Part shown: positions 18,746-28,204 of the stretch, in pieces
Position numbering within the stretch: the first letter of the stretch is position 1
How the letters are laid out: the number at the start of each line of letters is the position of its first letter
Assembly (NCBI GenBank): GCA_003285105.1
Contig: CP030158.1
Coordinates: 3,954,449-4,018,448, forward strand
DNA from: Roseithermus sacchariphilus
GTDB taxonomy: Bacteria; Bacteroidota; Rhodothermia; Rhodothermales; MEBIC09517
Length of the DNA stretch: 64,000 bases
Direction: 5' to 3'
Translations under genes and position numbers: made by a program
The notes under the pieces: generated by a model
Told to the model about the DNA's origin: nothing
Databases searched by the model: none
What the model saw: the letters and a program-made list of their open reading frames with translations, nothing else

Positions 18746-19627
18746 ATGATCCCCGAACCCTTCGAGTACAGCGCCCCGACCTCGCTATCCGAGGCGCTGA
18801 CCCTCCTGCGAGAGCTGGGTGATGAGGCCAAGATCCTGGCCGGCGGCCACAGCCTCATTCCCATGATGAAGCTTCGCTTCGCCACCCCGACCCACCTGGT
18901 CGACCTCAACCGCGTGCCGGGCCTGTCCTACGTGACCGAAGAGAACGGAGTGCTCAGGATCGGCGCCATGACACGCGAGCACGAACTCGACGAGTCCCCG
19001 ATCGTGGCCGAGAAGTTCCCCATCTTCCGGGACGCCGCGCGGCTGATCGCCGACCCGCAGGTCCGCAACTTTGGCACCGTCGGGGGCAACCTGGCACACG
19101 GAGACGCCGCCAACGACCAGCCGGCCGTCATGATCGCCCTCAACGCCGAGGTCGTCATCGCCAGCCTGGACGGCGAGCGTACCGTGCCGATCGACGACTT
19201 CTTCTACGGTTTCTACATGACGGCCGTTCAGGAAGGCGAGATCCTGACCGAGATCCGCGTGCCCATCCAGCCGGGCCGCACCGGCAACGCCTACCACAAG
19301 AGCGAACGGAAGGTGGGCGACTACGCCACGGCCGGGGTTGCGGTGCAGGTTTCGCTGGACGACGACGGCGTGTGCACCTACGCCGGCATCGGTCTGACCA
19401 ACGTCAACCCTACCCCGATGCGGGCCCGGCGCTCCGAGGAAGCCCTGCTCGGCCGCCGGATCGACGAGGACGCCATCGCCGCGGCGGCCCGGTATGCCGC
19501 CGAGGACTGCAACCCGTCGGACGACCTGCGCGGCTCGACGGCCTACAAGCGCCGGCTCGTCCGCGTACTGACGCAGCGCATGATCCACAAGGCCCTGGAG
19601 CGCGCCCACGGACGTTCAACCCACTGA
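18746..19627 (+). CDS. coxM: Carbon monoxide dehydrogenase medium subunit (FAD-binding)
   Basis: 293-residue flavoprotein subunit of the aerobic Mo-Cu CO dehydrogenase, passing electrons from the iron-sulfur subunit to the quinone pool. FAD-binding motifs AGGHS (32-36) and TVGGN (111-115) fall at the positions expected for CoxM, and the length is standard. It is the first gene of a plus-strand operon in the order M-S-L, the arrangement of form I (true) CO dehydrogenases; form II loci are usually S-L-M. The coxS start follows the stop by 11 bp. Confidence 0.95.
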
Positions 19628-19638
19628 CCCCCCCTCCC

Positions 19639-20142
19639 ATGACCCGAGACATCACCGTCACCATCAACGGGGAACAGCACACCGTAGCCGTCGAACCCCG
19701 GCTGCTGCTGGTACACCTGATCCGCGAGAAGCTGAACCTGACCGGCACCCACATCGGCTGCGACACCTCCAGCTGCGGCGCCTGCACCGTCCTGATCAAC
19801 GGCAAATCCGCCAAGTCGTGCACTATCCTGGCCGTGCAGGCAGACGGCGCCTCCATCACGACGATCGAAGGCGTGGGCACGCCCGAGGCGCTGCACCCGC
19901 TCCAGGAAGGCTTCCGGGAGTGCCACGGGCTGCATTGCGGCTTCTGCACGCCCGGCATGATCATGCGGGCGATGGAGTTGCTGGAGAAAAACCCCAACCC
20001 GACCGAGGAAGAGATCCGCTGGGGCATCGCCGGCAATCTCTGCCGGTGCACGGGCTACAACAACATCGTCAAGGCCATCCAGTATGCCGCCGCCAAGCTG
20101 CGCGGCGAGGAGACGCCGTCGACCGAGCCCGAGTTCGTCTGA
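19639..20142 (+). CDS. coxS: Carbon monoxide dehydrogenase small subunit (2Fe-2S)
   Basis: 167-residue iron-sulfur subunit. The N-terminal plant-type ferredoxin cluster is bound by Cys41, Cys46, Cys49 and Cys61 ([12 protein letters not shown]...C). The C-terminal cluster is bound by Cys100, Cys103, Cys135 and Cys137 ([15 protein letters not shown]). Both are intact. ATG 19639 is chosen because the ferredoxin beta strand (DITVTINGE) begins just after it. It carries electrons from the Mo-Cu site in CoxL to the FAD in CoxM. A 68-bp gap precedes coxL. Confidence 0.96.
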
Positions 20143-20210: not shown

Positions 20211-22583
20211 ATGATTACCTGCAAGACCTCCCGCGAGATCGGGGGAATGGGGCACCCCATCAAACGCAAGGAAGACATTCGCTTCATCCAGGGCAAGGGC
20301 CGCTACGTCGACGACATCAAGCTGCCCGGGATGCTGCACATGGACATCGTCCGCAGCCCCTACGCCTATGCCCGGATCAAACACATCGACGCCTCGGAGG
20401 CCCTCAAGATACCGGGCGTGGTGGCCGTCGTGACGGGCAAGGATCTAGAAAAATACAACCTGCACTGGATGCCGACGCTGATGTCGGACACGCAGATGGT
20501 GCTGCCGACCGACACGGTGATGTACCAGGCGCAGGAAGTCGCCGCCGTCATCGCCACCGACCGCTACACGGCGCGGGACGCCAAGGAGGCCGTGCGCGTC
20601 GAGTATGAGCCGATGAAGCCGGTCGTCGACCCCTACAAGGCCCTCGAGCCGGACGCGCCGGTGCTGCGCACGGACAAAGAAGGCAAGACCGACAACCACA
20701 TCTGGCACTGGGAGGTCGGGGACCGCGAGAAGACGGAGGCCGTTTTCCGCAGCGCGGACGTGGTGGTGAAGGAGCACATGCACATCCCGCGGATCCACGT
20801 CGTCTCCATCGAGACGTGCGGCTGCGTGGCGGATTACGACAAGGTGAACAATCACCTGACGATGTACATGACCACGCAGGCACCCCATGCCATACGCACG
20901 GTGATCGCGCTGGTGGCCGGGCACCTGGGGCTCACCGAGGAAAAGATCCGGGTGATCTCTCCGGACATCGGGGGCGGCTTCGGCGGCAAGGTGCCGGTCT
21001 ATCCCGGCTACGTCATCGCCATCGCCGTCTCGTTCCTGACGGGCAAGCCGGTCAAGTGGATCGAAGACCGCAGCGAGAACCTCCAGGCGGACTCCTTCGC
21101 CCGGGACTACCACATCACGGCCGAGATGGCGGCCACCCGCGAGGGCAAGATCCTGGCGACGCGCTTCAAGGTGCTGGCCGACCACGGCTACACGGACGCC
21201 GCGGCCAACCCGTCGAAGTTCCCCACGGGGCTGTTCTCCATCGGCACCGGGTCGTACGACTACGACACCGCGTTCATGGAGGCGGACGCCGTCTACACCA
21301 ACAAGCCGCCGGGCGGGGTGGCCTACCGCTGCTCCTTCCGCGTGACGGAGGCCGTGCACGCCATCGAACGGCTCACCGACAGCATGGCACGGGCCCTCGG
21401 CATGGACCCGGCCGAGTTTCGGATGAAGAACTTCATCAAGAAGGAAGACTTCCCCTGGAAGTCGCCCACCGGCTGGACCTACGACAGCGGCGACTACCAC
21501 GCCGGCCTGAAGAAGGCCATGGAGGTCATCGGCTACGACGACCTGCGGCGGGAACAGGCCGAAAAGCGCAAGAAGGGAGAACTGATGGGCATCGGCATCT
21601 CCACCTTCACCGAGATCGTCGGCGCCGGCCCGTCGAGGGACTTCGACATCCTCGGCATCAAGATGTTCGACAGCTGCGAGATCCGCGTCCACCCCACGGG
21701 CAAGGCCATCGCGCGTTTCGGCACGAAGAGCCAGGGCCAGGGCCATGAGACCACCTACGCGCAGATCATCGCGGAGGAACTGGGCATCCCGGCCGAGCAC
21801 ATCCAGGTGGAGGAGGGGGACACCGACACGGCGCCCTACGGACTGGGCACCTACGCCAGCCGCAGCACCCCCACGGCCGGCGCCGCCGCCGCCGTGGCCG
21901 CCCGCAAGCTGCGCGACAAGGCCCGGAAGATTGCGGCCTACCTGCTGGAGGTCAGCGAGGAAGACCTGGAATGGGAGCCGGGGAAGTTTTACGTCAAAGG
22001 CGCCCCCGAGAAAGCCAAAACCATCCAGGACATCGTCTTCGCCGCCTACACGAACCATCCCCCCGGCATGGAAGCCGGCTTCGAGGCGACGCACTACTAC
22101 GACCCGCCCAACCTGACCTTCCCCTCGGGCGCGTACATCTGCGTCGTCGACATCGACAAGGAGACGTTCGAGATCAAGATCCGGCGCTTCGTGGCCATCG
22201 ACGACTGCGGCAACATCATCAACCCGATGGTCGTTCAGGGTCAGGTCCACGGCGGCCTCACGCAGGGCCTCGCCCCGGCCATGTACGAGGAGCTGATCTA
22301 CGACGAAGACGGCAACATCCTCAACGGCACCCTGATGGACTACCTCGTGCCGACGGCCGTCGAGTCGCCCCGATGGGAGACGGGGCATACGATCACCCCG
22401 TCGCCCCATCACCCGATCGGGGCCAAGGGCGTCGGAGAATCCCCGACGGTGGGCGCCCCGCCGGCCATTGCCAACGCCATCGTCGATGCGCTGTCGGTCT
22501 ACGGCATCACCCACCTGGACATCCCGATCACACCGTACAAGATCTACGAAGCCCTCAAGGCAAAAGGGGTCATCGAAGACTGA
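20211..22583 (+). CDS. coxL: Carbon monoxide dehydrogenase large subunit, form I (Mo-Cu active site)
   Basis: 790-residue catalytic subunit that oxidises CO with water to CO2. The active-site loop reads AYRCSFR (371-377), the diagnostic form I sequence; Cys374 corresponds to the cysteine that bridges copper to molybdenum (Cys388 in Oligotropha carboxidovorans). Moco-binding stretches GGGFGGK (254-260) and a GVGESPTVGAP segment with the conserved catalytic Glu near the C-terminus are present. Form II relatives carry AYRGAGR instead, so CO is the likely true substrate. Surrounded by coxM, coxS and maturation genes coxG, D, E and F. A very long open frame on the opposite strand is a GC shadow. 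Confidence 0.96.
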   Translation: MITCKTSREIGGMGHPIKRKEDIRFIQGKGRYVDDIKLPGMLHMDIVRSPYAYARIKHIDASEALKIPGVVAVVTGKDLEKYNLHWMPTLMSDTQMVLPTDTVMYQAQEVAAVIATDRYTARDAKEAVRVEYEPMKPVVDPYKALEPDAPVLRTDKEGKTDNHIWHWEVGDREKTEAVFRSADVVVKEHMHIPRIHVVSIETCGCVADYDKVNNHLTMYMTTQAPHAIRTVIALVAGHLGLTEEKIRVISPDIGGGFGGKVPVYPGYVIAIAVSFLTGKPVKWIEDRSENLQADSFARDYHITAEMAATREGKILATRFKVLADHGYTDAAANPSKFPTGLFSIGTGSYDYDTAFMEADAVYTNKPPGGVAYRCSFRVTEAVHAIERLTDSMARALGMDPAEFRMKNFIKKEDFPWKSPTGWTYDSGDYHAGLKKAMEVIGYDDLRREQAEKRKKGELMGIGISTFTEIVGAGPSRDFDILGIKMFDSCEIRVHPTGKAIARFGTKSQGQGHETTYAQIIAEELGIPAEHIQVEEGDTDTAPYGLGTYASRSTPTAGAAAAVAARKLRDKARKIAAYLLEVSEEDLEWEPGKFYVKGAPEKAKTIQDIVFAAYTNHPPGMEAGFEATHYYDPPNLTFPSGAYICVVDIDKETFEIKIRRFVAIDDCGNIINPMVVQGQVHGGLTQGLAPAMYEELIYDEDGNILNGTLMDYLVPTAVESPRWETGHTITPSPHHPIGAKGVGESPTVGAPPAIANAIVDALSVYGITHLDIPITPYKIYEALKAKGVIED

Positions 22584-22703
22584 GGAGCGAACACGGCCGG
22601 CCGGGAGCAAGCGGATCGGCTCCGTGCCGGACCCCGACTTCGTGCCGGATCCCGGCCGGCCGTGCCCTCCTTCCCATGCCCATCCCATTCCGAGGCATCC
22701 ACC

Positions 22704-23243
22704 ATGCAAACGACCATTTCCAACACCTTCTTCATCGAGGAGCCCATCGACAAGGTCTGGGCGAGCCTCAGCGATCCCATGGAGGTGGTGACGTGCGTTC
22801 CCGGCGCCTCCATCACCGAAAAGATCGACGACACCCACTACAAGGGCGCCGTGACGCTGAAGTTCGGCCCCGTCAAGGCCGAGTATGCCGGAGAGATCGA
22901 GATCCTGGAATCGGACCCCTCGGCCCATCGCCTGGTGCTCAAGGGCGTCGGGCTGGACGCCAAAGGCAAGGGGCAGGCCGAGATGACGATGAACGGCCAC
23001 CTCGCCGAGAAAGACGGGGGCACGGAGGTGAGCTTTACGATGGACGTATCCATCGTCGGTATGCTGGCCCAGTTCGGCTCCCGGCTGATCAACGACGTCT
23101 CGGACCACCTGCTCAAGCAATTCGTCAGCAACTTCAAGGCGAAGCTGTCCGGCGGCGAGGTCGACAACACCGCCAGCGCCGGCTCCATCGCCCGGTCGGT
23201 GCTGAAGGAGAAGGTGGGCGGCCTGTTCAGGAAAGAGGGGTGA
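22704..23243 (+). CDS. coxG: CoxG-family protein (SRPBCC fold)
   Basis: 179 residues of the carbon monoxide dehydrogenase subunit G family. The N-terminus NTFFIEEPIDKVWASLSDPMEVVTCVPGA is the family signature, with a START/SRPBCC-type fold over about 1-150. A C-terminal tail (about 155-179) is basic and might contact the membrane. CoxG is thought to help recruit or anchor CO dehydrogenase at the cytoplasmic membrane, and in mycobacteria a homologue carries quinone; both are family knowledge. ATG 22704 places the signature at the N-terminus; an upstream ATG at 22662 adds only a Pro/Ser-rich stretch. Confidence 0.93.
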   Translation: MQTTISNTFFIEEPIDKVWASLSDPMEVVTCVPGASITEKIDDTHYKGAVTLKFGPVKAEYAGEIEILESDPSAHRLVLKGVGLDAKGKGQAEMTMNGHLAEKDGGTEVSFTMDVSIVGMLAQFGSRLINDVSDHLLKQFVSNFKAKLSGGEVDNTASAGSIARSVLKEKVGGLFRKEG

Positions 23244-23300
23244 TCGGCGCCGGGCGGGCCGATGAAACGGCCCCGTACCGCCGCGCATACCGGAGTGCCC

Positions 23301-24176
23301 ATGCAGGAGATTCATGCGTTGGCCCGGGCCTGTGACGCCCTGGGCTACGTCGTCGAGGACGAACTGGCCACGGTGCTGTACCTGATGCTCCGGCTGGAAA
23401 AGCCGTTGCTGCTGGAAGGGAATCCGGGCGTCGGGAAGACGGAGGTGGCGCAGATCATGGCGGCCTACCTGGAGACGGACCTGATTCGCCTGCAATGCTA
23501 CGAAGGGCTCGACGCCCACGCGGCGCTGTATGAATGGAACTACCAGAAGCAGCTGCTGGCGATCAAGATCAACGAGCAATCCGGCCTGCATGCCGAGGAG
23601 CAGGAAGCCCGCATCTTCGGCGAGGCCTACCTGCTCAAACGCCCCCTGCTCCAGGCCATCACCGCCCCGGACCGCGCGCCCGTCCTGCTGATCGACGAGG
23701 TCGACCGGGCGGATGAGGAGTTCGAGGCGTTTCTGCTGGAGTTGCTCTCGGCCTACCAGATCAGCATCCCGGAGATGGGCACCATCCGCGCCACGCACAA
23801 GCCGGTGGTGATCCTGACCTCCAACCGCACCCGGGAACTCAGCGACGCCCTGAAGCGCCGCTGCCTCTACCACTGGGTCGACTACCCGCCCTTCGAACGC
23901 GAGCTGAAGATCATCCACAAACACCTGCCCGATATCGACGACGAGCTGGCCACCCGGCTCGTCCGGTTCGTCGAGCAGTTGCGCACGATGCGGCTGGACA
24001 AAGCCCCCGGCATCGCCGAGACGATCGACTGGGCGCGCAGCCTGCTGGCCCTCGGGGCGACGCGCTTCGAAGAGCCCTACGTCAGCCGCAGCCTCGGCGC
24101 CGTGCTCAAGTCGGACGCCGACATCCGAGCCGTCCGGGAGCACGGCGTGGAGGCCCTGCTGGAATCCACCCGGTGA
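23301..24176 (+). CDS. coxD: CoxD, MoxR-type AAA+ ATPase for CO dehydrogenase maturation
   Basis: 291 residues from ATG 23301 (an ATG at 23262 would add 13 residues; the later one is preceded by GGAG and aligns better with family starts). Walker A GNPGVGKT (40-47), Walker B LLIDEVDR (129-136) and sensor LTSNRTREL identify a MoxR-family AAA+ ATPase. In O. carboxidovorans CoxD is needed for sulfuration of the Mo centre, working with the VWA protein CoxE and with CoxF. The stop overlaps the next start (GTGA), so coxD and coxE are translationally coupled. Confidence 0.93.
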   Translation: MQEIHALARACDALGYVVEDELATVLYLMLRLEKPLLLEGNPGVGKTEVAQIMAAYLETDLIRLQCYEGLDAHAALYEWNYQKQLLAIKINEQSGLHAEEQEARIFGEAYLLKRPLLQAITAPDRAPVLLIDEVDRADEEFEAFLLELLSAYQISIPEMGTIRATHKPVVILTSNRTRELSDALKRRCLYHWVDYPPFERELKIIHKHLPDIDDELATRLVRFVEQLRTMRLDKAPGIAETIDWARSLLALGATRFEEPYVSRSLGAVLKSDADIRAVREHGVEALLESTR

Positions 24177-25336
24177 CCCCCGTGACGACGGCGCCCGAAC
24201 ATCCGCACTACACGCACTTTGCCTCGCTCAAGGAGAGCGTGCTGGGGTTCTGTGCGCTCTGCCGCCGGCACGACCTGCAGGTGGGCATCCACCACACCCG
24301 GGACGCGCTGGAGGTGGCCCGCCTCGGGCTGGTCCACGACCCGACCGCCTTTCGCTATGCCCTCCGTGCGCTCTTCTGTAGCACGCCCGAACAGCAGGCT
24401 ACCCTCGATGCGCTCTTCGACTCGTTCTGGGGCCGACGCAGGGCAGCGATCCGCAACCGGGTCACGTACCACAACCAGGCTCGCCCCCCCCAGCGGCCGC
24501 CCGGCTCGCTGGTGCTGCTCGGCATCGGGCAGGACCGGCAGCTGCCGGATCGCGAGGACTCCCGGAACGTCTCGGGCGCCAACCGGGTGGAGGCGCTCCG
24601 CCGTACGGATTTCTCGAAGGTGGCCGACATGGACAGCGCGCTGCTGGACGAGATCGCGGACCGGCTGTTGCGGGAGATGAGCCACCGGCTTCGTCGCCGG
24701 ATGCAGCACGACCGTCAGGGCCGCATCGACCTGCGGCGGACGATCCGCACCAACCTGAGCCACGGCGGGCTGCTGCTGCGCCTGAAACGACGCAACCGCC
24801 GGCTGGAGCGCTATCGCCTGGTCGTCCTGCTGGACGTGAGCGGCTCGATGGATACGTACTCGTTCTACCTGCTGAAATTCATCTGGGCGCTGAAATCGCA
24901 CTTCAAGTCGATCGAGGCGTTTCTCTTCAGCACGAAGCTGGTACGCATCACGGACTGCCTGGACGAGGGGCCGCTGGAGCGCGTGCTGGCCTCGCTCAGC
25001 CGCGAAGCCGATCACTGGTCCAGCGGGACGCGCATCGGGGCCTGCCTGCAAACGTTCAACGAGCGCTATGCGCGGCGCGTCCTCCATGGCCGCAACGTCA
25101 CGATCATCCTGAGCGACGGCCTGGACACGGGTCCGCCGGAGCTTCTGGCCGATGAGTTGCAACGCATCAAGCTCCGCACGAACAAGCTGGTCTGGCTCAA
25201 CCCGCTCAAAGGCATGCCGGGCTACCAGCCCCTGGCCCGCGGCATGAGCGCGGCCCTGCCCTCGCTCGACACCTTTGCCTCGGCCCACAACCTGGACAGC
25301 CTCCTGGAACTGGAGGATCTGCTCAGCCAGGTGTGA
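24173..25336 (+). CDS. coxE: CoxE, VWA-domain partner of CoxD
   Basis: 387 residues beginning with GTG at 24173, overlapping the coxD stop by four bases. The C-terminal half is a von Willebrand A-type domain with the MIDAS motif DVSGS (221-225), a Thr in SSGTRIG and ILSDGLD completing the metal site. The N-terminal half is helical and basic. CoxE-type proteins pair with MoxR ATPases. In Oligotropha CoxE is implicated, with CoxF, in inserting copper into the CO dehydrogenase active site. Operon position between coxD and coxF supports this role. Confidence 0.93.
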   Translation: MTPVTTAPEHPHYTHFASLKESVLGFCALCRRHDLQVGIHHTRDALEVARLGLVHDPTAFRYALRALFCSTPEQQATLDALFDSFWGRRRAAIRNRVTYHNQARPPQRPPGSLVLLGIGQDRQLPDREDSRNVSGANRVEALRRTDFSKVADMDSALLDEIADRLLREMSHRLRRRMQHDRQGRIDLRRTIRTNLSHGGLLLRLKRRNRRLERYRLVVLLDVSGSMDTYSFYLLKFIWALKSHFKSIEAFLFSTKLVRITDCLDEGPLERVLASLSREADHWSSGTRIGACLQTFNERYARRVLHGRNVTIILSDGLDTGPPELLADELQRIKLRTNKLVWLNPLKGMPGYQPLARGMSAALPSLDTFASAHNLDSLLELEDLLSQV

Positions 25337-25372
25337 CCTCATGAGACGCGCCCTACCGGTTCCCATACGCCC

Positions 25373-26398
25373 ATGTTTGACATCTTTTACGACAAGGCGC
25401 AGACGCTGAAGCAGGCGGGCGTGCCGTTCGCCCTGGCCGTGGTGGTGCGCCACGAACCGCCAATCTCCGGCAAGCCCGGCGACAAAGCCATCATCCTGGC
25501 CGACGGCACGCTCCATGGCTGGATCGGGGGCGGGTGTACCCAGCCGGTCATCATCAAGGAAGCCCGCAAGACGCTGGAGGACGGTACGCCCCGTCTCGTA
25601 CGCATCACCCCTTCGGCCAGCGAGGTCGTCGTCGAGGGCATCAAGGAATACCCGATGACCTGCTACAGCGGCGGCGCGCTCGACATCTACATCGAACCCG
25701 TCATGCCTCGTCCCCAGCTCGTCATCCTCGGCCACTCTGCCGTGGCTCAGGCGCTGGCCCGGCTTGGCCGCGTCATGAGCTACCGCATCGTGGTGCAGGC
25801 CCCCGAGGCCACCGCCGATCTGTTCCCGGACGCCCATGCCTTCCGGCCCGCGTTCGACCTGACCGAGATCACGCCGACGCCGCAGACCTTCGTGGTGGTG
25901 TCGACCCAGGGCCACGGAGACGAGGACGCGCTGAAGGCGGCCCTGGCACGGGAGATGCCCTACGTGGCCTTCGTGGCCAGCCGGCGCAAGGCGCTGCAGG
26001 TGTTTGCCAACCTGGAGGATCAGGGAATGGACCCCACCCGCCTGGAGCACGTCCACACCCCGGCCGGCCTCGACATCGGCGCCCGCCTGCCCGAGGAGAT
26101 CGCGGTGAGCATCCTGGCCCAGATCGTCCAGGTCCTTCGCCGGCGCCCGGAGGAGTCGCCCCCGTCCTCCACACCCCACCGGCACACGCTGCACGTCGAC
26201 GCCATGAGCTGCGCCCACTGCATCCATCGCGTCCAGAAGGCCCTGGGCAGCGTCGAGGGGGTGACGGTGCACGACGTCGAGATCGGCTGGGCCGAGGTCA
26301 GCTACGATCCGGCCGACGTCGCCCTCACGGACATCGCGGCCGCCCTCGAAGCCGCCGGCTACCACCTGCGGCCCGACCCGGCGCCCGCTACGCCCTGA
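25373..26398 (+). CDS. coxF: CoxF (XdhC family) fused to a C-terminal HMA copper-binding domain
   Basis: 341 residues in two parts. Residues about 1-258 are XdhC/CoxF-like: an N-terminal domain with GWIGGGCTQPVIIKEARK (49-66) and a Rossmann-like part beginning PQLVILGHSAVAQAL (114-128). After a short Pro/Ser/Arg linker (about 258-270), residues 271-337 form a complete heavy-metal-associated domain: HTLHVDAMSCAHCIHRVQKAL, with the metal-binding pair in MSCAHC (278-283), GVTVHDVEIGWAEVSYDP and a final DIAAALEAAGYHL. This is the CopZ/Atx1 fold that carries Cu(I). CoxF is known to be needed for copper insertion into CO dehydrogenase, so the fusion plausibly delivers copper directly. I know of no standard CoxF with this tail. 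Confidence 0.92.
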   Translation: MFDIFYDKAQTLKQAGVPFALAVVVRHEPPISGKPGDKAIILADGTLHGWIGGGCTQPVIIKEARKTLEDGTPRLVRITPSASEVVVEGIKEYPMTCYSGGALDIYIEPVMPRPQLVILGHSAVAQALARLGRVMSYRIVVQAPEATADLFPDAHAFRPAFDLTEITPTPQTFVVVSTQGHGDEDALKAALAREMPYVAFVASRRKALQVFANLEDQGMDPTRLEHVHTPAGLDIGARLPEEIAVSILAQIVQVLRRRPEESPPSSTPHRHTLHVDAMSCAHCIHRVQKALGSVEGVTVHDVEIGWAEVSYDPADVALTDIAAALEAAGYHLRPDPAPATP

Positions 26399-26424
26399 AC
26401 CCCCACCGGCCACCCGGTGCGCCC

Positions 26425-27048
26425 ATGCCTGCCCGACCGACCGTTTCCGCGATCCTTCTGGCGGCCGGCGAATCCCGGCGGATGGGAGACGCCAACAAGC
26501 TGCTCCTGCCGTTCCAGGGCCGCCCGCTCATCGAGCACGTCGTCCGCGCCCTGACGAACGCGGACGTCGACGAAACCGTCGTCGTGCTCGGCCACGAGGC
26601 CGAGCGCATCCGGCCCGTGCTCGCGGCCTACCCGGTCCGCACCGTGCTCAACCCGGACTATGCCGACGGGATGACGACGTCGATCCGGGCGGGCGTCCGG
26701 GCCGCGGCGGCCGATGGCGACGGGTTCATGATCTGCCTGTCCGACCTGCCGCTGATCGAGGCGGCCGAGTTCACGTACCTGGCGAACGCCTTCCGGAAGG
26801 CGTTGGCGACGGACCCGCAGTGCATCGTGCGCCCGGTCTACGAAGGACGCCCCGGCAACCCCGTGCTGTTTTCCGCAGCCTACCGACCGGCCATCGAGGC
26901 GCACGAGGCCGTGACGGGCTGCCGGGGGCTGATCAAACGCCACCGGACCCACGTGATCGAGGTGCCGATGGCGACGGATCACGTCGTCCGGGACATCGAC
27001 ACGCCGGAGGCCTACGCCACGCTCACGGCCACGACGAGATCGTCGTAG
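26425..27048 (+). CDS. MocA-like molybdenum cofactor nucleotidyltransferase
   Basis: 207-residue MobA-like NTP-transferase. The N-terminus ILLAAGESRRMGDANKLLLPFQGRPLIEHV is the nucleotide-binding signature (LAAGxSxRMG-x-x-K-LL), and SDLPLI holds the metal-binding Asp. The MocA subfamily attaches CMP to molybdopterin for xanthine dehydrogenase-family enzymes, and CO dehydrogenase uses exactly this MCD cofactor. It starts 26 bp after coxF and is the last plus-strand gene of the cox run. Its 3' end overlaps the convergent XdhC gene by 26 bp. Confidence 0.88.
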   Translation: MPARPTVSAILLAAGESRRMGDANKLLLPFQGRPLIEHVVRALTNADVDETVVVLGHEAERIRPVLAAYPVRTVLNPDYADGMTTSIRAGVRAAAADGDGFMICLSDLPLIEAAEFTYLANAFRKALATDPQCIVRPVYEGRPGNPVLFSAAYRPAIEAHEAVTGCRGLIKRHRTHVIEVPMATDHVVRDIDTPEAYATLTATTRSS

Positions 27049-28204
27049 GCAGGCCCGCACGGCCGCCGTGGATCGGCGCCTCGCGCTCGCGCAGGAACCC
27101 GGCCGGGCGCCCGTGCAGCACCGCCTGAACCTCGGCCAGCGTCGCCAGCGCAATCTCCTCCGGGGTCTCGGTGCCGATGTCCAGCCCGATGGGGCCATAG
27201 ATGCGCGCGCGCTGGTCGTCCGTGAGCGGCTGGTTCATCTCGACCTCCGTGATGATCCGCGCCGTCCGCTCCCGCGGCCCGAGCATCCCGATGTAGCGCA
27301 GCGGCGTTGCCTCCAGCAGCGTCTGCAGCAGGCGGCGGTCCCGCAGGTAGGTGTGGTTCATCACCAGCACGGCCGTACGCGAATCCACCGTCACGTGCTT
27401 CAGCGCCTCTTCGGGATGCATCAGGTAGGTCCAGGCCTCGGCGTCCGGGAAGCGTTCCTGCAACTCGGCGGCCGGTTTGCGCCCGACGACCTGCACGCGC
27501 CACCCGAGGCCGGCCGCAAACCGCACGAGGGGGCCGACGTCGTGCCCCTCGCCGAAGATCACCAGCCGCACGGGCGGCAGGACACGCTCGTAGAGCACCT
27601 CGGCCTTGCCGGCATCGAGCGTGTAGCGCTGCGTCTCCCAGACGTACGGATCCGAGGACGCCGCGTGCTCCGCCATGACGTGCCGGGCGTGGTCACGGAC
27701 GCGTTCGAAGAGCGGGGATCCCTCCAGATCGCCGTGGAGCGAGCCGTCGTCGAGCAACAGCAGGTGCCGCGCCAGGCTGTCCTGCAGGCCGGGCTCGACG
27801 TCGATCACCGTCGCCAGCAGACCGGTGTGGCGATCTTCCACGCACCGGTTGAGCAAGTCGATGGGGCTGGCCCGGCCCTCGACCGGGACGGGCTCCAGCA
27901 GCACGTGGGCGACGCCGTTGCAGCCCGTGCCAAAGCCAAAGATCAGATCGTCGTCGTCGAGGTCGAACGGCAGTAGTTCGGGCCGGCTCGTCTCCAGCAC
28001 GTGCAGCGCGCGCTGGGCTACCTCCCCTTCCAGACACCCGCCGCTCACCGTACCCCAGCGGCGGCCGTCCTCGGCCACCAGCATGCGGGCGCCGGGCCGG
28101 CGGTACGTCGAACCCCCGATGCGGACGACCGTGCCCACGGCGAACGGCCGCCCCTCGCGCTGCAGCGCCCCGGCCTGGTTCAGCATGTCGAGCAGTTCTT
28201 TCAT
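27023..28204 (-). CDS. XdhC/CoxI-family molybdenum cofactor maturation protein
   Basis: 393 residues of the XdhC family, which bind Moco and promote its sulfuration or insertion into xanthine dehydrogenase-type enzymes. Visible: N-terminal GTVVRIGGSTYRRPGARMLV with GTVSGGCLEGEV (the conserved Cys motif), a central GFGTGCNGV, then VRLVIFGEGHDVGPLVRFAAGLGWRVQVV (Rossmann) and YIGMLGPRERT near the end. The C-terminal IGLDIGTETPEEIALATLAEV is also typical. It is the second XdhC-type gene here, distinct from coxF (no HMA domain), and is transcribed towards the cox operon with overlapping 3' ends. Likely the general Moco chaperone for CoxL. Confidence 0.9.
   Translation of the reverse strand: MKELLDMLNQAGALQREGRPFAVGTVVRIGGSTYRRPGARMLVAEDGRRWGTVSGGCLEGEVAQRALHVLETSRPELLPFDLDDDDLIFGFGTGCNGVAHVLLEPVPVEGRASPIDLLNRCVEDRHTGLLATVIDVEPGLQDSLARHLLLLDDGSLHGDLEGSPLFERVRDHARHVMAEHAASSDPYVWETQRYTLDAGKAEVLYERVLPPVRLVIFGEGHDVGPLVRFAAGLGWRVQVVGRKPAAELQERFPDAEAWTYLMHPEEALKHVTVDSRTAVLVMNHTYLRDRRLLQTLLEATPLRYIGMLGPRERTARIITEVEMNQPLTDDQRARIYGPIGLDIGTETPEEIALATLAEVQAVLHGRPAGFLREREAPIHGGRAGLPTTISSWP

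Follow-up and report, generated by a model that had tools for sequence, protein, structure and literature searches.

The window analysed here, the whole 64,000-nt stretch of Roseithermus sacchariphilus CP030158.1 to which coordinates refer unless another locus or genome is named, contains a compact operon on the plus strand with the gene order coxMSLGDEF-mocA (Table 1). The genes are tightly spaced, with coxD and coxE overlapping and with 36 bp between coxE and coxF and 26 bp between coxF and mocA. The CoxL score of 1250.9, against the TIGR02416 equivalog cut-off of 991, and the form I loop AYRCSFR identify the enzyme as a Mo-Cu CO dehydrogenase, in which Cys374 presumably acts as the Cu ligand, a role carried over from the known Oligotropha enzyme.

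A second XdhC gene lies convergent to mocA and overlaps its 3' end by 26 bp. Its product groups with XdhC proteins that neighbouring genomes encode beside their form II loci, and the form II locus of its own genome is far from it (G000:C1:129106-131400). The minus strand of 20211-27048, a GC-rich stretch, holds spurious antisense frames of up to 1232 aa, which are not genes.

Table 1. Features of the cox operon and of the CoxF-HMA protein (positions within the window).
Feature	Position	Strand	Evidence
coxM, FAD subunit	18746..19627	+	Pfam
coxS, [2Fe-2S] subunit	19639..20142	+	Pfam
coxL, form I CO dehydrogenase large subunit	20211..22583	+	TIGR02416 above cut-off
AYRCSFR active-site loop of CoxL	21321..21341	+	sequence
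CoxL Cys374 (in AYRCSFR), expected Cu ligand	21330-21332	+	
coxG, start codon uncertain	about 22704..23243	+	Pfam COXG
coxD, MoxR-type AAA+ ATPase	23262..24176	+	Pfam
coxE, VWA protein	24173..25336	+	Pfam VWA_CoxE
coxF-HMA fusion gene, 341 aa	25373..26398	+	ORF, Pfam, full-length homologues in 8 other genomes
XdhC_CoxI domain, residues 14-78	25412..25606	+	PF02625, 64 bits, cut-off 24.3
Cys97 in MTC(H/Y)SGG motif	25661..25663	+	alignments
XdhC_C Rossmann domain, residues 116-251	25718..26125	+	PF13478, 106 bits, cut-off 29.7
20-residue linker without Cys	26126..26185	+	sequence; residues 260-266 pLDDT below 50 in model
HMA domain, residues 272-331, CopZ-like	26186..26365	+	PF00403, 40.8 bits, cut-off 24.8
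MSCAHC metal-binding motif (predicted)	26204..26221	+	sequence; MSC(A/Q/S)HC in all 9 fusions
MocA-like molybdopterin cytidylyltransferase	26425..27048	+	Pfam NTP_transf_3; NCBIfam TIGR03310 just below cut-off
Second XdhC paralogue, without HMA or YHS	27023..28204	-	domain search, tree; internal control

The CoxF-HMA fusion protein

The fusion gene lies in an operon with form I coxL, coxD and coxE, as expected for coxF, and runs from ATG to TGA with no internal stops. The HMA match passes the Pfam gathering score, spans the whole profile (1-62 of 62) and includes MxCxxC. The ORF, Pfam and TIGR02416 thus confirmed the preliminary description, which had read the locus as an XdhC/CoxF protein with a full C-terminal HMA domain and MSCAHC beside an AYRCSFR CoxL. 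With Pfam, the C-terminus of the window CoxF gave HMA and no YHS domain (PF04945), and the protein reached 41.4 bits with the xanthine dehydrogenase XdhC equivalog TIGR02964, below its cut-off of 161.6 bits. A chance fusion or an assembly artefact was ruled out, because full-length fusions with MSC(A/Q/S)HC occur in eight further genomes at 51-59% identity and the nine genomes include single-contig ones.

In the XdhC_CoxI domain, GGGC55 is invariant in CoxF, and Cys55 and Cys97 (window numbering) are both invariant across all CoxF rows of alignments A2 and A3. The position of Cys97 is that of M107CPSHGTM in Oligotropha CoxF, which has been named as a putative Cu motif (PMC4240915).

The AlphaFold2 model of the fusion protein had a mean pLDDT of 90.5, with the HMA domain in the expected order beta-alpha-beta-beta-alpha behind a flexible linker; the model does not firmly place the tail against the body (pTM 0.67). 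Foldseek matched the body to the XdhC structures 2we7/2we8/3on5 and the tail to CopZ (2qif; TMt 0.79, 40% identity), the best small-domain match. The folding of the HMA domain, on which the initial idea of a copper-delivery device depended, is thus predicted with high confidence, closest to CopZ. Among the HMA models, the copper-type TIGR00003 scored highest at 51.9 bits, below its own cut-off of 62, followed by MerP (26.8) and ZntA (23.4). In the tree, the CoxF-HMA domain nests with the free CopZ of Rhodothermales, apart from the CopA HMAs (SH-aLRT 96). The fused HMA is thus closer to soluble CopZ than to the HMAs that CopA itself carries.

Distribution and history of the C-terminal modules

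Seven full-length fusions were found among 60 relatives, and one more in the complete order set. The HMA fusion is present in 9 of 114 Rhodothermales genomes, which belong to four families and include Rhodothermus, and all nine copies keep MSC(A/Q/S)HC. When form I CoxL above the cut-off was searched for independently, exactly these nine of the 114 genomes came up (Fisher p about 1.5e-13, with kinship ignored). Lower-scoring CoxL proteins were found in these nine genomes and in G007 and G019; ten of the eleven carry the form II loop AYRGAGR, and that of G069 has no recognised loop. Where an XdhC adjoins the form II locus in G000, G002, G007, G019, G030, G037 and G069, it has no HMA or YHS domain, and form II loci in these and neighbouring genomes do have coxD/coxE-like genes. 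The expectation that the fusion accompanies only form I (CSFR) CoxL was thus borne out at the loci examined, and the absence of the module from form II XdhC indicates that it tracks the copper enzyme rather than CO dehydrogenase-like enzymes generally.

For other lineages, one genome per species (84,980 species) was scanned with CoxF peptide patterns, which sit in the XdhC body and are blind to CoxL and to the tail, and the best 80 loci, namely those nearest to the query, were retained. Among these 80 loci, HMA endings occur only in the Rhodothermales entries, and nearly all others end in the block DPVCGM...YYFCCxGCKxxF...P..Y, which Pfam calls YHS in all six cases examined. The YHS model was matched by motif in 73 of the 77 non-Rhodothermales CoxF proteins, found blind to CoxL. 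Every complete copy has either YHS or HMA, with two copies (L056 and L095) cut by contig ends. HMA as the general copper donor domain, a possibility raised at first, was therefore rejected: among the loci examined it is seen only in Rhodothermales, YHS is the common form, and Oligotropha CoxF has neither.

An AYRCSFR CoxL is in place at 54 of the 80 loci, and the rest are mostly cut by contig ends. CoxL is missing from its place at the other 26 loci; form I above the cut-off was found elsewhere in 12 of their genomes, clear fragments in 3 and none in 11, and these 11 are fragmented MAGs and thus uninformative. Three loci whose 8 kb of upstream sequence lacks CoxL (L053, L059 and L104) were rejected as counter-examples, since their MAGs encode form I CoxL on a different contig. 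Outside Rhodothermales, YHS-CoxF was found in the majority of the form I operons examined, which come from Bacteroidota, Acidobacteriota, Verrucomicrobiota, Chloroflexota, Calditrichota, some Proteobacteria and a haloarchaeon.

In Chloroflexota, form I CoxL is present in 41 of 201 genomes, with a CoxF-type gene beside it in 41 of 41, one of them cut by a contig end; the complete copies all have YHS. Four apparent exceptions (G547, G522, G557 and G525) were rejected, all having YHS-CoxF beside form I CoxL, and in a fifth (G567) CoxF is cut by a contig end. The sole Chloroflexota genome with CoxF and no form I (G399) has a contig end just upstream. Form I was found in 16 of 329 Pseudomonadota genomes, all with a CoxF-type gene, two with YHS and 14 with no module. 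Form I therefore does not require the module, although within the sample the module occurs only with form I. Short CoxF-like XdhC proteins of Pseudomonadota away from form I (G759, G734 and G610 contig 56) carried no YHS or HMA, and neither was seen in any of about 30 non-CoxF XdhC proteins inspected, among them the other XdhC proteins encoded around the 80 loci. Among plasmid records, YHS is present in Thermomicrobium, Paraburkholderia, Caballeronia, the haloarchaeon Natronorubrum and, in degenerate form, Deinococcus, and absent from Oligotropha/Afipia pHCG3, Bradyrhizobium, Rhizobium, Roseivivax, Marivivens and Nonomuraea. These counts include related species repeatedly, and the E-values and the concordance ignore phylogeny. 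The form I restriction holds for the sampled genomes, and rare XdhC proteins with HMA or YHS may exist outside form I.

In the YHS alignment, C284 and FCC(307-308)xxC(311) are invariant across the phyla sampled, and the tail of a YHS-type CoxF was confidently predicted in a structure model. Several variants were observed. Four loci (L101, L111, L128 and L072) have an extra Cys-rich linker stretch (SCCGG, CSCGCGEE, TSCCSG) that might bind metal as well, and two (L046 and L119) have two tandem YHS domains. The Deinococcus CoxF (L126 8001-9062) has a degenerate YHS, in which the first Cys is lost (SPVDGEE) and which reads FTCANC; it may be an intermediate towards loss. An alphaproteobacterial-type CoxF (L211 1456-2532) has a long unrelated tail ending in FCCM. 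Some Chloroflexota and Nonomuraea (L203, L204 and L166) have a variant CoxL loop, AYACSFR for AYRCSFR.

The maximum-likelihood tree of 95 XdhC bodies, from which the tail columns were excluded, gave a CoxF clade with support of 100/99 containing 60 YHS, 7 HMA and 6 plain proteins. Oligotropha CoxF falls inside this clade together with the window protein, and CoxI and the tailless paralogues fall outside. The HMA rows share a 98/91 clade with 33 YHS rows, and the plain alphaproteobacterial clade that includes Oligotropha is sister to the gamma- and betaproteobacterial YHS proteins (98/92). The simplest reading is that YHS was gained once at the base of CoxF and is ancestral, that it was lost in Alphaproteobacteria and Nonomuraea, and that HMA replaced it in Rhodothermales. 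The CoxF-body and HMA trees are compatible with an arrival of HMA once or more often.

The tree also contained a second plain XdhC, in a sister clade to CoxF (100/92), which is encoded in several cox operons and often right after mocA (L047 829-1698; L048 4539-5444; L072 9642-10523; L083 9703-10506; L102 10207-11034; L104 9745-11172; L105 9845-10693). These operons thus pair a tailed CoxF with an untailed relative.

Possible role of CoxF in copper loading

In Oligotropha, coxE and coxF mutants produce a CO dehydrogenase that contains sulfur and lacks Cu, and sulfuration has been linked to CoxD (PMC4240915). From this joint phenotype and the putative motif, in one species, CoxF was already proposed as the copper supplier by the authors of that study; since CoxE and CoxF are interdependent for expression, what a coxF mutant shows cannot be pinned on CoxF alone (PMC4240915). 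The term 'Cu-chelatase' was used in the CoxD paper (PMC3471820). What the present data add is a dedicated, predicted metal-binding module of CoxF, of two unrelated kinds and tied to the copper enzyme. Open-access full text contained no paper joining YHS with carbon monoxide dehydrogenase or XdhC, and none joining the heavy-metal-associated domain with carbon monoxide dehydrogenase and XdhC, and the wider YHS/HMA pattern on CoxF appears to be undescribed.

In most lineages other than the one studied in the laboratory CoxF carries a small, predicted metal-binding tail, and the exchange of this tail for a copper-chaperone domain in Rhodothermales suggests that copper is loaded into CO dehydrogenase by CoxF. 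Further support comes from the finding that the slot is filled by soft-metal domains of two unrelated kinds and that, in the loci examined, these accompany the copper enzyme alone. We therefore consider, with a probability of roughly two in three, that CoxF is a form I-specific member of XdhC whose C-terminal slot holds a soft-metal module for copper loading, ancestrally YHS and later a CopZ-type HMA. Somewhat less securely, we lean towards the fuller proposal that CoxF is the long-sought copper donor, in which the XdhC body reads the target and the exchangeable YHS or HMA supplies Cu(I) by a logic like that of CCS, the lineage of the model organism having lost the module.

Beyond the module and its association with form I, which were observed here, we infer the following steps. 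The module would take Cu(I) from the cytosolic pool via the CxxC ligands of HMA or the Cys-rich ligands of YHS, and the XdhC body would recognise the sulfurated apo-CO dehydrogenase. Cu(I) would then pass, perhaps via Cys97/Cys55, to Mo-SH and Cys374 of AYRCSFR in CoxL. As the Mo site is buried at a depth of about 17 A (PMC4240915), a direct handover is hard to picture; the AAA+/VWA pair CoxD/CoxE may open the buried site. The module is not essential to the chemistry, since the alphaproteobacterial and one actinobacterial CoxF proceed without it.

The YHS domain is a TRASH-like module for which copper binding has indirect support, while TRASH domains bind other metals too, and YHS mediates the Cu activation of an adenylyl cyclase (PMC4626032). 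As this only functionally studied YHS fusion acts as a copper sensor, and as the genome of the window has a separate CopZ-CopA pair, the module might instead gate the CoxD/E/F machinery on Cu(I), with the copper coming from another donor such as CopZ. We regard such sensing as unlikely, because the HMA that replaced YHS is of the soluble carrier type rather than a typical sensor, and because loss of coxE or coxF leads to a Cu-free and not a mis-regulated enzyme (PMC4240915).

A Cys-rich module could also carry a persulfide for Mo sulfuration, in line with the action of XdhC in the sulfuration and protection of Moco in xanthine dehydrogenase (PMC2997495, PMC4240915), or it could be a zinc or structural element, as other metals are bound by TRASH/YHS folds. 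The assignment of sulfuration to CoxD and the retention of S by the coxE/F mutants that lose Cu speak against the persulfide role (PMC4240915), as does the lack of the module in xanthine dehydrogenase and form II XdhC proteins, which need none. The exchange of one soft-metal domain for another argues against structural and neutral readings alike and does not separate delivery from sensing. We know of no CopZ-type HMA family that serves as a sulfur carrier or structural zinc module, and consider these roles still less likely than sensing. Least likely of all is a neutral fusion, in which the tail arose by chance and hardly affects maturation, as its loss in Alphaproteobacteria and Nonomuraea and the degenerate Deinococcus copy might suggest. 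Against this reading, the metal ligands are invariant in every HMA fusion and, across phyla, in the sampled YHS alignment, a metal domain of unrelated origin came to fill the slot again, and the form I restriction is strict in the sample.

Under the copper-loading reading, the tail on CoxF makes the copper-donor question directly testable through single-domain deletions and domain swaps. As the Oligotropha lineage lost the module, work on Oligotropha would miss it. A tailed CoxF may help in the heterologous production of active CO dehydrogenase, and an XdhC with YHS or HMA is a practical marker that flags form I CO dehydrogenase operons. Mo-Cu CO dehydrogenase handles much of the share of the atmospheric CO sink that is due to soil and marine microbes.

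Comparison with known systems

The window CoxF shares with the CoxF of Oligotropha (Afipia) carboxidovorans pHCG3 the XdhC subfamily, the place after coxE and the body Cys motif. The Oligotropha protein, on which copper insertion depends jointly with CoxE (PMC4240915), differs in having 280 aa and no HMA or YHS tail and in belonging to a clade that probably lost the module. The XdhC of xanthine dehydrogenase (TIGR02964) and the form II XdhC have the same XdhC_CoxI and XdhC_C body, whereas they lack a metal tail and fall in a different clade.

The tail itself has the HMA fold of Bacillus subtilis CopZ (2qif), with an MxCxxC of the MSCxHC kind; however, CopZ is a free 69-aa protein serving CopA, and the HMA of the window is fused to an XdhC body. 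In most other CoxF proteins this C-terminal position is taken by YHS/TRASH (PF04945), which is absent from the window protein and is unrelated to HMA in fold and in ligand pattern (about C-x22-FCCxxC). An analogous logic is known from CCS, the eukaryotic Cu chaperone for SOD1, in which an Atx1-like HMA is joined to a target-recognising domain, although the recognition domains of CCS and CoxF-HMA are not homologous and their target enzymes differ.
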